Below, piece after piece: positions 2,496 to 64,000 of a DNA stretch of 64,000 nt (position 1 is its first letter; every line of letters starts with the position of its first letter). The notes below the pieces were generated by a model, which was not told the DNA's origin, searched no databases, and saw nothing but the letters and a program-made list of their open reading frames with translations. The translations under genes and the position numbers were made by a program. Origin of the DNA: Amphirosellinia nigrospora (Eukaryota; Ascomycota; Sordariomycetes; Xylariales; Xylariaceae); contig SCHM01000008.1 in NCBI GenBank assembly GCA_004123355.1, positions 1,111,501 to 1,175,500 on the forward strand, given 5' to 3'.

Positions 2496-3679
2496 ATGAG
2501 CTCTGACGAATCAGAATTCTATGGTATTGCAAACCAACATGTTGCATTTTTCACAGCTCGTTTTGACACTTGAGTTTTAGGCGACAGTGACCTCGTGACA
2601 GAGATGGAAAGGAAAGTCGATAACTTGGACATCCAGAAGTGGTGGGAAACCCACGAAGCTCTTGAGACGCCTATAAAGAGCCAGGCGCGAGGTGGATCGG
2701 TGACTCCGTACGAGTCACAACTCCAGTTAGTATTTCCAACTCATTTAATTCCTAGTCAGCAAAAATATGCTCACGCATGCTCCTGAACACTCCGATCGTG
2801 AGTCAGACCTTGCTATAAACGGTGGTTTCTGACTCTTAATCTTTCACAGTAACCCCTATGCCGGTGACACGTATGCGTGCAGCTCAACGAGACTGTTAAT
2901 GCATTCCTCAAGCGACTGCCGCCGGCCACGACTGAGGAGACACCGGGCCATCCCTGGGTTTGGATCTGCAACCCATACATCAAGCGGAAGTCCCGGAATG
3001 ACGCCGAGAACCAACACGTTCGCGGCGGCGAAAATGAGGTACCCGAGGATGAAGGCGCAGACCTGGCTACATTGATGCAAGCTGGAGAAGAGCGGCTAGG
3101 TTTCGCGTCCTCATTCATTCAACAGTTTCGAAAGCCGGGGATGGCACAGGCTCTCATCAGTGCGTAATTCTTGTCTCGTTTTGGCTACTTTTAAGAACGA
3201 TCATCTTTCTTTTGGACGTGACGGTGTCCAGAAGCTTGCTGAAACTCTCATAATTCATGTTCTGAAGGGCAATAACTGACTCCGAGTACTGTAGTACAAG
3301 AATCGAGGAAAGCGGGTAATGATGCTGCCAAGGATATCCTCGATCTGGCGAAGGGTCTTCGCGTAACGTGCGGCAAGGCATGACATCCAAGTACCGAATC
3401 ACATATATTGGGCATTGCTGACTGAAGTAGTGGATGCTCTTCTGTGCCGCCTTCGAAGTCAATGAGGTCTGGGAAATCATCGCCAAGGCCACTGCAGAGA
3501 ACGAACTAGGAATTGCTGCCAAAGTTGCAACCAAATCCAATGTCGACCAAAGAACAGAACGCCTTATTTGCGTGTACACGGCAGACTTTTCAGATACGAA
3601 AGAAGTAACCCGAGTAGCGAAGAGGCTAAAGCAACTCGGGCTTATCAAGAATAACCCACTCTACTATAAACCCGGTTAG
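2496..3679 (+). CDS. DUF1917 / BLES03-like (UPF0696) protein, five exons
   Basis: Member of the DUF1917 family (human C11orf68/BLES03 relatives), whose molecular function is not established. Exons fit at 2496-2523, 2581-2729, 2883-3159, 3295-3377 and 3431-3679; phases join cleanly with no frameshift. The protein begins MSSDESEFYGDSDLVTE; family landmarks are HPWVWICNPYIK (exon 3), DILDLAKGLRVTCGKWMLF across the exon 4/5 junction and LGIAAKVATK plus LICVYTADFSD in the last exon. The fourth intron (3378-3430) has a GC donor (AAG|GCATG) and an AG acceptor, the only GC..AG intron I needed in the window. The third intron (3160-3294) is homologous to introns in other genes and is listed separately as an introner. 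Exon 4 cannot be seen as an open frame on its own; it was placed by intron boundaries and family similarity. Confidence 0.82.
3160..3294 (+). mobile_element. Introner-like element A (intron 3 of the DUF1917 gene, 135 nt)
   Basis: A phase-1 intron (ATCA|GTGCGTAATT ... GTACTGTAG|TACAAG). Its ends and interior match introns in an unrelated transporter gene 60 kb away: GTNNGTAATTCT at the 5' end, GTTTTGGCTACTTTT near position 20, GTGTCCAGAAGCTTGCTGAAAC in the middle (split here as GTGTCCAGAAGC and TTGCTGAAAC) and GCAATAACTGACTCCGAGT just before the acceptor. The last 19-nt block is identical to intron C (63200-63292). Introns of unrelated genes are not expected to share sequence beyond splice signals, so a mobile or copied origin is inferred. 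Confidence 0.85.
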
Positions 3680-51681: not shown

Positions 51682-52635
51682 ATGAAGGCTACCATTGCTT
51701 CTATTCTCGGTCTTGCCAACGGCGTCCTCGCGACCGTTCAGGGTTTGACATCTCTCATTACCAGTCGAGCGTCGACTTTGCCGGCGCCTACAGTGCTGGT
51801 GCTCGTTTTGTCATTATCAAGGTGAAGCGTACCACCACTGGTCTGCTATATGAATGACAACGAGCAAAGCTAATCGTATGTACAGGCGACTGAGGGCACA
51901 ACTTACATCGATCCCAGTTTCAGCTCCCACTATTCGGGTGCCACTAATGCCGGGTTCATCCGCGGCGGCTACCACTTCGCTCACCTGGTGCGTGTTAACT
52001 TATTTATTACTCGGCGGATTGTGTAAACGACTATTATTGAACATGGGATTATAAATTAATACTAAGTCTATAATCAGGACACGAGCTCTGGCGCCACCCA
52101 GGCAAACTACTTCCTCGCTCACGGTGGTGGTTGGTCCGGCGATGGCATCACCCTACCCGGGATGCTCGATCTCGAGGGCAGTTGTGTACTCTCGGCCAGC
52201 GCCACCGTAGCCTGGATCAAGGACTTTAGCAACACCTACCACTCTAAAACGGGCGTGTATCCCCTACTCTACACCAATCCTCGTGGTGGTCGTCCTGCAC
52301 GGGCAATTCGAATGCGTTTATCGACACCAACCCTCTAGTGCTTGCTCGATATAGCAGCAGTGCGGGCACGCCCCTGGCGGTTGGCCGTACTATACTATCT
52401 GGCAGTATAACGATGCTTATAAATTGTGCGTAATCCTTGCAATTATTTTATTCTTGTTTTGGCAGGTTTCCATGGCATGGGACTCCCTTTTCAAGATAAG
52501 GAATGCCTAGAAGCTTCTGAAACCTTTGCAAATCACGCTTCAAATGGCGGTAGCTAATGTCGATCTTGCAGCGGCGGCGATTCTGACACCTTCAACGGCG
52601 ATATGGCTGCGCTCCTTCGGCTGGCCAAGGGATAA
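51682..52635 (+). CDS. Secreted GH25 lysozyme-like muramidase
   Basis: Glycoside hydrolase family 25 (N,O-diacetylmuramidase), predicted to cleave bacterial peptidoglycan outside the cell. A signal peptide MKATIASILGLANGVLA is followed by QGFDISHYQSSVDF with the catalytic-barrel Asp of the family's DIS motif, then ARFVIIKATEGTTYIDPSFS, GGYHFAHL, the LPGMLDLEG block (acidic active-site residues) and VLARYSSSAGTPLA, IWQYNDAYKFGGDSDTFNG. Introns: 51822-51885, 51988-52077 and 52436-52571; the last is a diverged introner. Three single-base losses (T near 51745, one near 52285, G near 52382) break the frame; repaired length about 220 aa. It borders the transposon island and lies in a gene-poor stretch. 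Fungal GH25 genes are often considered bacterial acquisitions, but the introns show long residence. Confidence 0.82.
52436..52571 (+). mobile_element. Diverged introner-like element D (last intron of the lysozyme gene)
   Basis: Phase-2 intron (AAATT|GTGCGTAATCCTTG ... CTTGCAG|CGG). It keeps the family's 5' GTNNGTAAT, CTTGTTTTGGCAGGTTT (compare CTGTTTTGGCAACTTT) and CCTAGAAGCTTCTGAAAC (compare TCTAGAAGTTTCTAAAAC in element B), in the same order and spacing. The 3' end has drifted: GCTAATGTCGATCTTGCAG replaces the CTGACTCCGAGT...TAG end, so this looks like an older copy. Confidence 0.68.
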
Positions 52636-53050
52636 ATGATTATAATATTAGTCAAACTGCTCTGAATACATGATTCTCTATTATTGTGAAGTGTGAGGTG
52701 ATTAATTGTGATGATGATACTTTGCAGTAAATAAGACGCAAGATTTTTGCAAGGAGCTTTCACATATGGAATGGGTCGCTTCTATCAACATAGTTGTATT
52801 AAAACGACCAATCCGATGATGATTGATCCTTTGGGTTCTTTGCTCTGGAAGGGCGAAAATAGCGGAAGGGTTTGGATGATGTGACAGAGACGCGAAGACG
52901 AAAACAAGCTTAGGCTCCCCGAAAGAGATATATATACGAATGATGTGTTAGGGAAGAGGTTATCCCACTTTATCTGGGTTGAAGAGTTCATACCTTTATA
53001 AGTATCGATAAAGTCATATTTGGACTAACTGGCTAAAATCTGGGTACGTA
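52636..53050. other. 3' flank of the lysozyme gene up to the transposon island
   Basis: AT-rich sequence without a supported gene. It ends with TACGTA, whose last TA is the target site of the Tc1/mariner element. Confidence 0.4.
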
Positions 53051-61769: not shown

Positions 61770-63847
61770 ATGTGTGACAGGACACAAGTTGGCGGACCGG
61801 AGGCGGCCGCAGCTTCGGGCTCTACTGACCAACCGACATCACCGCGCACCAACGAAGAGGCGACCCCAATCCAAGAGGATGACAGGAGTCGTGTCCGCGA
61901 GTTCTACGAGAGGAACTTCGGCTTGTTCTTGGTTTTTTCAGCCCAGACATTTGGTTCAGTGGTGCGCCTCATTGCACCATTTATTTCTACGCTCCTATTC
62001 CTCCAGACGAGCTCCTTTCGCACAGATAGATACTGCTGCCGTTACTTGACTAACAGTTAGCTTGTTTCTATAGATGAGTACGGCGGCGAAGCTCTTGACC
62101 TCCAAAGATTCGCCCAACCGCTTCCATGCCCTACACATCATCTTCGTCCGCAGTTAGTATTTCCGAGTCGCTTATTCCTCGATGGGGGAAAAATCCAGCT
62201 CCTGTCTTTCTCCTACTTTGGATGTAAATGGTAGCTTCTAAGTGCTAATATTGCACAGTGTTGGCCACCGCCGTACTGGGTTCGTTGTACATGTGGCATA
62301 AGAAAGTCCCCAACTTCCCCATAGGGCCGCAAAACAGTTCGTATTCTTAAGTCATTTATCCCTCAACGTAGTTAAAAGATCCTGCTCCTCTGCGCCATGT
62401 GCGCCTGCATATTCCCCAAATACCCTATTCACGAGTCTTTCTTCTTCTGTTTCTTTGCTATGAACGGCAGTCTCTAACATCATCTCTCCTAGTGTTTCCC
62501 CTGCTCATCATGCGCGGCGCCGCTGGCTTTGTTGGACTTTTTGGCCTGTACTGTGAGTCGTTGTCACCAACACATAGCGGCGAGACCGTGGTTCTAAGTG
62601 ACGTATAAGAAGGGCGGACTAGAAGCTAATCGCCTTTCCCCGCAACTCGCTCTCATACCTAGAGATTTCGGATGCTACGGCCATCTCCTTCTTGGTCCCT
62701 ACTTGGACTGCGATCCTCTGCTATGTCTGGCTTGGGGTGAGTCGTTTCGAAAATTCAAAGGGCCCTGGCGAAGTAAGGGGAACGGTAGCTGACCCTTTTA
62801 CAGGAACCATACCGGATTCAAGAGGCTTTTTCAGGCTTTATTTCACTAGCTGGCGTCCTACTTATCGCGCGACCGGCGTTCTTATTTGGGAGCGCAACTG
62901 CATCGGACGACGATCATGCGACAAGTTTCATCGTAAACGGGGCTCAAGAAGGATTGCCCGTGGGTTCCCCGTCTTCACAGCGGACGCTTGCTGTCATGGT
63001 GAGTAATTATCAATATTAATTTCTTACTGTTTTGGCAACTTTTGGAACATCAGATTTCCATATTGGGATAAGAGAGTGTCTAGAAGTTTCTAAAACTCGT
63101 ACAAAACAGCTCCAGATCGCAACAACTGACTTCGAGTATCGTAGTGTTCCATCATGGGCACATTCGCAGCGGCGACAGCATACAGCTCCATCCGGGTCAG
63201 TATGTAATTCTCGAGACATTTTCTTCCTGTTTTGGCAACTTTCCCTCCCAATTCACGCTACAAACAGCAATAACTGACTCCGAGTGTTGTAGTTGGAAAA
63301 CGAGTTCATTCACTGATCAGCGTAAATTATTTTGCCGTGCTATCGACAGTCGGTTCCGCATTGGTTATCCTGGTTCATCCGGATCTTCACTTCATATTGC
63401 CCGAGGGCGCGATGCAATGGTAGGTTATGTGAGGTTACCATTCGATATGAAAACTAACTGCAGTAGGGCCTTGCTGGTCATCATTGGAGTGGCGGGATTC
63501 TTGCTACAGTTCCTCCTGACAGAGGGGCTGCAGCGAGAGAAAGGCGGCAGAGCGACGAATATGACGGTAATCTCTAGCCATGGAAAACAACACGTCAGAC
63601 CCGTTGCCTTGCTAACTCGTTCCATTGCCTGTAGTACTTTCAAATGGTACTTGCGCTTATCATTGAGCGTGTCATCTGGGGAACGACGCCTGCGTTGCTG
63701 AGTTTTGTAGGGAGTGCCTTGATCATCGGTGCCGCGGTATGGCTAAGCCTACAGAAAGCCAAGCCGAACGAAGTGAAGGAGAGAAGGGCTGTGGTCGACG
63801 AGGAGACTAGTCTGCTCGGGCCCGGAAGAATACAACCTGGAGTATAG
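61770..63847 (+). CDS. SLC35/EamA (drug/metabolite transporter superfamily) membrane transporter, ten exons
   Basis: Predicted ten-helix transporter of the DMT superfamily (SLC35G/EamA-like); substrate unknown. Exons: 61770-61961, 62074-62152, 62259-62336, 62493-62552, about 62645-62736, 62804-62998, 63145-63199, 63293-63419, 63467-63566, 63635-63847. Landmarks: NFGLFLVFSAQTFGSV, MSTAAKLLTSKDSPNRFHAL, LLIMRGAAGFVGLFGLY, ISDATAISFLVPTWTAILCY, AFSGFISLAGVLLIARPAFL, GTFAAATAYSSIRVIGKRVH, SLISVNYFAVLSTVGSALVI, LLVIIGVAGFLLQFLLTEGL and VLALIIERVIWGTTPALLSF. The paired Gly/Ala-rich helices and the two-EamA layout fit the family. Only one small defect: the acceptor before exon 5 reads CCGCA|ACTC, as if a G were missing. 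Two adjacent introns (62999-63144 and 63200-63292) are introner-like. The C-tail ends GRIQPGV. The GTG at 61764 is not needed; ATG 61770 begins MCDRTQVGG. Confidence 0.85.
62999..63144 (+). mobile_element. Introner-like element B (transporter intron, 146 nt)
   Basis: Phase-0 intron GTCATG|GTGAGTAATT ... GAGTATCGTAG|TGTTCC. It carries CTGTTTTGGCAACTTT (16 nt identical to element C), GTGTCTAGAAGTTTCTAAAAC (as GTGTCTAGAAG and TTTCTAAAAC; compare A and D) and GCAACAACTGACTTCGAGT, two mismatches from the 19-nt 3' block of A and C. CTGAC is the probable branch site. Confidence 0.85.
63200..63292 (+). mobile_element. Introner-like element C (next transporter intron, 93 nt)
   Basis: Phase-1 intron GTCA|GTATGTAATTCT ... 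GAGTGTTGTAG|TTGGAA, only 55 nt after element B. It shares CTGTTTTGGCAACTTT with B and GCAATAACTGACTCCGAGT exactly with A. Relative to A, B and D it lacks the middle GAAGCTTCTGAAAC block, so it is an internally shortened copy. Confidence 0.85.
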
Positions 63848-64000
63848 GACGAGTGACTTCAACCAGGGGGCAGATAGCATATGACATTACTTGAGCACCT
63901 TGTGAGTGTTAGGGTCAATACTAGAGGCTACTTGATAATGAATGAGCTGCATGGAAGTTGCCATTGCCTACTACCCGTGACATTTCCTACTTAGGTACAA
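63848..64000. other. 3' flank of the transporter to the window end
   Basis: About 150 nt of non-coding sequence; nothing recognised apart from a TTAGGTAC motif near 63992. Confidence 0.4.

Follow-up and report, generated by a model that had tools for sequence, protein, structure and literature searches.

The four introns described here, found in a 64,000-nucleotide stretch of Amphirosellinia nigrospora DNA (the window, G000:C10:1111501-1175500, in a genome of 48.1 Mb and 11 contigs), very probably belong to a single introner family that was copied into many exons, seamlessly and without consequences for the encoded proteins. This reading, already put forward in the earlier note, is supported by the multiplicity of the elements in the genome, by the GT..AG ends of all 74 copies that span the family profile, by the unrelated sequences flanking the copies and by control introns that match only themselves. 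That the copies were gained is suggested by comparison with the proteins of relatives, and their removal by the spliceosome, as judged from the sequence, is close to certain. Fungal introners were first recognized more than ten years ago; new here are the host, the subterminal inverted repeat and the A|T target, and not the kind of element itself. No description of this family was found in the literature searched; an earlier listing in supplementary tables may exist.

Four related introns and their genes

A profile search of the window (nhmmer) returned exactly four copies of the family, A to D, all of them + strand matches far better than chance would give (E 4.7e-17 or better, table 1), as the earlier note had claimed. 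Since the profile was built from genome-wide copies with A-D among the seeds, the independent evidence is that of the genome-wide search presented below. The next-best match in the window, with E 0.053, overlaps B on the opposite strand and is accounted for by the self-complementarity of the element. With the reversed window as control, nothing better than E 2 was obtained, and an Rfam search of the window gave no match.

Table 1. Positions in the window of the four introner copies, their blocks and the gene that hosts two of them (transporter exon ends were chosen by motif, and the 5′ end of the gene is provisional).
Feature	Position	Strand	Phase	Gene	nhmmer E	Remarks
Copy A	3160-3294	+	1	DUF1917/Bles03	1e-24	flanks CA|..|TA
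Block GTTTTGGCTACTTT of copy A	3178-3191	+				5′ arm of internal inverted repeat; pairing in some copies and in S2 consensus
Block GAAGCTTGCTGAAAC of copy A	3231-3245	+				3′ arm of the same internal inverted repeat
3′ block GCAATAACTGACTCCGAGT of copy A	3269-3287	+				3′ arm of near-terminal inverted repeat; motif CTGAC at 3276-3280
Copy D	52426-52571	+	2	GH25 muramidase-like	2.2e-24	
Transporter gene	62663-63848	+		EamA/DMT transporter		hosts B and C; exons 62663-62736, 62804-62998, 63145-63199, 63293-63419, 63467-63566, 63635-63848
Copy B	62999-63144	+	0 (ATG|TGT)	EamA/DMT transporter	7.7e-33	
3′ block of copy B	63119-63137	+				2 mismatches to GCAATAACTGACTCCGAGT
Copy C	63200-63292	+	1	EamA/DMT transporter (same gene as B)	4.7e-17	
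3′ block of copy C	63267-63285	+				0 mismatches to GCAATAACTGACTCCGAGT

The shared blocks that had been quoted were recovered on reading three regions and on aligning the four segments. Block GTTTTGGCWACTTT is exact in A, B and C and has two mismatches in D. When three mismatches are allowed it is weak evidence of the family if taken alone, with 20 matches in the window, a shuffle mean of 12.5 and 2 of 100 shuffles as high. Block GCAATAACTGACTCCGAGT, at the same tolerance, occurs three times in the window and in none of 100 shuffles; its CTGAC motif in copy A is presumably the branch point, by the fungal consensus. Copy C carries an internal deletion, with approximately 50 bases gone, and in copy D the profile match stops at position 138 of 147 and the full 3′ block is absent, in agreement with the weaker likeness that had been ascribed to the lysozyme intron. 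The exon boundaries first proposed hold for A (3159/3295), B (62998/63145) and C (63199/63293); for D, the position 52435 is to be replaced by 52425/52572.

With B and C removed, frame 0 of the transporter gene is open over 253 residues, and the product is 87% identical to the Xylaria curta DUF6/EamA protein P0121 and to that of X. telfairii. The DUF1917 protein encoded by the gene of copy A is 91% identical to that of X. acuta and 89% to that of X. longipes, and the spliced mannose-6-phosphate isomerase (PMI) of another locus of the family (L043) is 84% identical to those of Xylaria curta and X. flabelliformis. No near-identical protein was present among the 120 best matches listed in each of the three protein searches. 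The host is therefore a Xylaria or something very closely related to it, within the Sordariomycetes, and is not one of the Dothideomycetes singled out in the earlier note.

Some irregularities of the host genes were noticed by eye. In the GH25 muramidase-like gene (52070-52640, + strand) the frame seems to be broken by one base at two points ahead of D (close to 52284 and to 52372), so that the gene may be a pseudogene or contain an assembly error. In the DUF1917 gene a frame break precedes LNETVN (2840-2890, + strand), and the last intron looks like GC-AG (3370-3432, + strand).

Size, anatomy and age of the family

Exact matches to GTTTTGGCWACTTT number 24 in the genome against none in the control. 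A 26-position pattern from the 3′ end and a 27-position pattern from the 5′ half, both with up to 3 mismatches, were found at 157 and 120 genome places, respectively, with no match to the reversed patterns. The genome-wide search proposed in the earlier note thus yielded many copies coinciding with GT..AG introns, and the elements do occur elsewhere in the genome. With up to 2 mismatches, for which the lists are complete, the 3′ and 5′ patterns gave 77 and 60 places, 16 of them in common and 121 in their union, from which a Chapman estimate of 279 family places was obtained, a rough value that is probably low because of the correlated detection of the two patterns. The family looks to comprise a few hundred copies; the hundreds foreseen at the outset are consistent with the estimate, and the thousands find no support.

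Single copies used as BLAST queries against the genome (E ≤ 0.01, self included) led to 20, 26, 50 and 9 matching pieces for A, B, C and D, respectively, where some places are counted as two pieces and the scoring for C covered 40 of 45 candidates. Two putative ordinary introns from the same two genes as family copies, placed by eye, had one genome match each, namely themselves, the query for the second being shifted by a single base (2727-2850 instead of 2726-2849). Searches of IMG/VR and of prokaryote contigs gave no exact match to the family blocks.

From 73 oriented loci of approximately 3 kb, nhmmer gave 104 merged matches, 93 of them with a score of at least 20. Profile positions 1-147 are spanned by 74 of the 93, all of which are GT..AG introns with a median length of 145 nt (one of the 74, C6:5891085-5891387, consists of two copies merged by the script); the best E value was 1.6e-43. 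The consensus is characterized by a GTRNGYAATT donor, a branch point that is mostly CTRAC and a YAG acceptor, its ends being GTGCG and GTTGTAG. By imposing two groups on the 56 copies of 138-153 nt that were aligned, k-means clustering separated S1 (n = 28, mean pairwise identity 79%) from S2 (n = 28, 70%). Average linkage of the same 56 only split off a single row (55 + 1) and did not reproduce this division, so that S1 and S2 are used for convenience only.

The ends of the element are related by a near-terminal inverted repeat formed by TAATTCTCGGAGT and ACTCCGAGTGTTG; the fraction of paired cells is 79.5%, and 35-41% when the arms are slid (six controls). The repeat is subterminal, with approximately 8-10 nt between its perfect part and the ends. 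In the S1 consensus the repeat is better than chance (shuffles as good, 13/5000 for the outer 25 nt and 102/5000 for the outer 70), and in the S2 consensus it is weak (370/5000 and 211/5000, respectively). A second, internal repeat has the blocks GTTTTGGCAACTTT and GAAGCTTCTGAAAC as its arms. Folding energy is close to that of shuffled sequences (mean z, −0.26 for the 73 of 74 copies that were folded, −0.17 for 73 upstream flanks) and, copy by copy, does not correlate with the profile score; the consensus fold of the 56 aligned copies contains only 7 pairs (−0.87 kcal/mol). No measure of covariation in the near-terminal stem rose above shuffles. The proposal that the stem structure was kept by selection after insertion is unsupported, covariation being no greater than in shuffles. 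The near-terminal repeat is inherited, not kept by covariation, and the symmetry seems to belong to the elements that multiplied, without being maintained in the copies.

The family is old, as judged from the best match to the consensus (86%, with 40 of 250 candidates scored) and the highest pairwise identity among the 56 aligned copies (93%). Three copies in unrelated flanks (L056, L058 and L062) share one internal deletion, are 113-114 nt long and are 90-91% identical; the presence of the same deletion at three unrelated places indicates that elements without the middle still multiplied.

Copies also tend to lie close to one another. Within 1.5 kb at the 73 loci, 28 same-strand and 2 opposite-strand neighbour counts were obtained, corresponding to 28 distinct elements. 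Mean identity is 0.634 within clusters and 0.681 between clusters, a comparison that is unmatched, as the search that yielded the neighbours was more sensitive than that for the other copies. Local hopping or tandem duplication was considered as the main cause of the clusters and discarded, since within-cluster copies are on average less alike (their mean was reached by 998 of 1000 permutations), although the best match lies in the own cluster more often than expected (see below). The clusters look mainly like the outcome of recurrent and independent insertion into genes that are tolerant or preferred. Tight arrays were noticed at L094:1194-1677 (G000:C4, 8.105 Mb), with three copies in less than 500 bp separated by 51 and 28 nt, and at L090 (G000:C6, 5.8908-5.8919 Mb), with five same-strand copies in approximately 1.1 kb, two of which are 27 nt apart.

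Junctions, reading frames and insertion sites

In 64 of the 74 copies the spliced junction lies within a reading frame of 60 codons or more (median, 152.5 codons). The corresponding values are 65/74 and 60/74 for controls in which the acceptor was shifted by 1 or 2 nt, with neighbouring copies kept in place, and 51/74 for the antisense control, with medians of 105.5, 119.5 and 80 codons, respectively. This test has little discriminating power, only the medians being different, and in it the ORF of L009 was misframed because C was left unremoved there. An ORF runs through the unspliced element in 4/74 copies only. Codon scores favour the sense orientation in 62/74 copies (48/59 when the training loci are left out); in 53/74 (40/59 with the same restriction) the true junction scores better than either shift by one base. 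Two of the 12 copies without a sense-favouring score (L009 and L041) are in sense by homology. As the frames say little, it is homology that decides on the junctions.

At nine junctions compared with proteins (those of A-D and of five other genes), removal of the element adds no residue. Alignments with solved structures are gap-free at the junction in five of the five genes tried, which had been picked as conserved from 50 spliced ORFs (PMI, a PTGR-like reductase, an ABC transporter, old yellow enzyme and a P450); that of the ABC transporter shows a one-residue gap nine positions upstream. A Pfam domain extends across the junction in 7 of the 10 spliced proteins scanned, including that of copy A (PF08939). 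When homologs forming part of 120 listed were inspected in each case, residues within 10 positions of the junction were lacking in 0/45 for PMI and in 0/40 for copy A (3/40 having extra ones nearby), and 0/48 were gapped within 10 residues for copy C. The copy B junction has no added residue with respect to 48 of the 120 listed, 3 of which are gapped in the junction stretch; one residue present in 48/48 is missing from the query six positions upstream. For copy D, the spliced YKF|GGDSD aligns without gaps to the muramidase 6zmv over 31 residues. The claim that the copies lie in sense between exons, the frames of which they restore on removal, is thus confirmed wherever homology allows a check, with no residue added at the A-D junctions.

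No target-site duplication was detected. With six-base windows at 324 offset pairs the best z was 3.2, at an offset that corresponds to no duplication register, and in 3740 diagonal tests the best z values were 2.4 and 2.8 (for all 74 and the best 40 copies, respectively). The site itself has a marked composition (n = 74), with C in 50% of the copies at −2, A in 58% at −1, T in 82% at +1 and G in 58% at +2, and without the AG/GY insertion preference. An A|T junction is found in 41/74 copies, against 6.6% of 7104 nearby dinucleotides (binomial p 5e-29), and A at −1 and T at +1 are associated (41/2 versus 20/11, Fisher p 0.001). Among 18 ordinary introns of the loci and the window, which were found heuristically, T at +1 and A at −1 occur in 5 each (p 1.7e-5 and p 0.03, respectively, in comparison with the copies). 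The A|T bias is equal in the upper (20/37) and lower (21/37) halves of the profile scores and, therefore, looks like a property of the site rather than an eroding part of the element. Inclusion of CA..TG in the element was rejected also because it would add residues, none of which is seen at the checked junctions. Copies at A|T sites are mostly in phase 1 (28/35 of those with a positive codon score); YA|TG in homology-supported coding sequence is in phase 1 in 52/96, leaving part of the phase-1 excess unexplained.

Relation to known introners and origin of the copies

Introner-like elements of Dothideomycetes (Fulvia, Dothistroma and Zymoseptoria) were reportedly described by van der Burgt in 2012. 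In two later accounts they are canonical introns in many unrelated genes, seamless and without target-site duplication (PMC4457414, PMC8469720). The family described here shares all these features with them, as well as the occasional presence of two copies per gene and the decay towards ordinary introns. It differs in belonging to another class of fungi, in showing no near-identical copies (top pair, 93%) and no unusual folding energy, and in having an A|T (YA|TG) target bias, the preference given for the Dothideomycete elements being AG/GY (PMC8469720). The family is also similar to transposon-type introners in being a set of similar introns, from which it is distinguished by the lack of target-site duplication, by carrying both splice sites and by the subterminal position of the inverted repeat. 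Such introners of algae and protists are said to have been described by Huff. Many of their families have inverted repeats, and it is in ascomycetes that the DNA-transposon model has its poorest fit (Gozashti 2022, PMC9860276).

The [D1,2] sister stwintrons, along with cropped sister introns, are present in Hypoxylaceae and Xylariaceae and are presented as having no exon bias (PMC8469720, PMC12403724); random break repair has been proposed for them (PMC12403724). As in that system, the copies found here are seamless introns of Xylariales without target-site duplication, with a near-terminal inverted repeat and with deletion derivatives that multiplied. They differ in being single canonical introns, in being more numerous in one genome (157 pattern places) and in their strong exon bias. 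That they are canonical-intron derivatives of such stwintrons, of the kind of the cropped sister introns, is improbable. The order of fungi is the same and the 3′ arm of the near-terminal repeat lies downstream of the branch point and ahead of the acceptor, an arrangement shared with the NTIRE design (PMC12403724). However, the repeat is unlike the printed 5′-GUAUAAAAAC / GUUUUUAUGU elements, and the NTIRE-10 pair GUAUAAAAAC / GUUUUUAURY is absent from the consensus. The exact GUAUAAAAAC / GUUUUUAUGU pair, with 125-155 nt between, had 0 matches in the host genome in a search that variants would escape and at the upper edge of which the published 185-nt stwintron spacing was reckoned to lie. 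Furthermore, the copies are not nested double introns starting with GGU: 74/74 copies start with GT (the G before B being there by chance), and a one-step GT..AG removal restores the frame in the window copies. Two other explanations carry far less weight. Spreading of ordinary introns by segmental or exon duplication, or by gene conversion between paralogs, would agree with the many loci with two or more copies and with the best match lying in the own cluster in 4/38 cases (0.66 expected). It is very improbable, given that the 16 unlinked pairs with matching flanks fell to 0 among 2701 when neighbouring copies were masked, that only one distantly related protein pair was found among 50 spliced ORFs and that, as seen above, same-cluster copies are on average less alike. 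Convergence, with introns alike only in splice signals and base composition, can draw on a donor, branch point and acceptor common to fungal introns, and it is practically dismissed by a 147-position profile with the E values reported above, by internal blocks outside the splice signals, by the self-only matches of the two control introns and by the empty pattern controls.

The question of how the copies moved is more evenly balanced. We lean, by a modest degree, towards insertion of excised intron RNA into coding DNA, which was then copied. An RNA intermediate is suggested by the seamless insertions, the lack of duplications and the sense orientation wherever homology could tell, and this route is the default by exclusion. 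A DNA route is distinctly less probable, and slightly less weight again is left with neither. In its specific form, the DNA route would involve a small non-autonomous DNA transposon with splice-site ends, inserted between A and T without duplication (Helitron- or integrase-like) and surviving only where it can be spliced. Helitrons have 5′ TC and 3′ CTRR ends and an A|T target without duplication. The latter feature is matched by the 41/74 A|T junctions and by the lack of a duplication signal. The association of A at −1 with T at +1, the independence of the target bias from copy score and the inverted repeat CTCGGAGT/ACTCCGAG near both ends (in S1, as good in 13/5000 shuffles of the outer 25 nt) also point to a DNA transposon. 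On the other hand, the absence of a duplication signal speaks against a transposon, the TC..CTRR ends are absent (the copies being GT..(G)TAG), the perfect repeat is internal to the ends by approximately 8-10 nt and weak in S2 (370/5000), and none of the copies with a homology check is antisense or intergenic.

In the preferred reading, that of an introner family, the copies are spliceosomal introns of approximately 146 nt, each supplying its donor, its acceptor and its CTRAC-type branch point. Elements ancestral to them were copied in sense and seamlessly into many exons, with a preference for A|T junctions (often YA|TG). Ordinary splicing would take out every copy, leaving the protein unchanged, and after insertion the copies decay as neutral introns. 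The terminal stem may serve to hold the two intron ends together for copying, not for splicing. An A|T bias is expected neither from random break repair nor from an AG/GY preference, so that a sequence-selective DNA step is conceivable. A tentative, and rather doubtful, proposal is that a sequence-selective machinery cuts or joins the DNA of a near-palindromic YA|TG site between its A and its T without duplication, the subterminal repeat being required for copying rather than splicing. If true, it would represent a third route of intron gain, unlike protosplice-directed reverse splicing, random break repair and transposases that generate target-site duplications.

The origin of introns is a long-standing question, and the family is large enough for statistics. 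The target bias, which is independent of copy score, the lack of detectable duplications and the deletion derivative that multiplied are constraints on models of intron copying in ascomycetes, the target bias being a sharp one, and fungi that grow in culture allow them to be tested.
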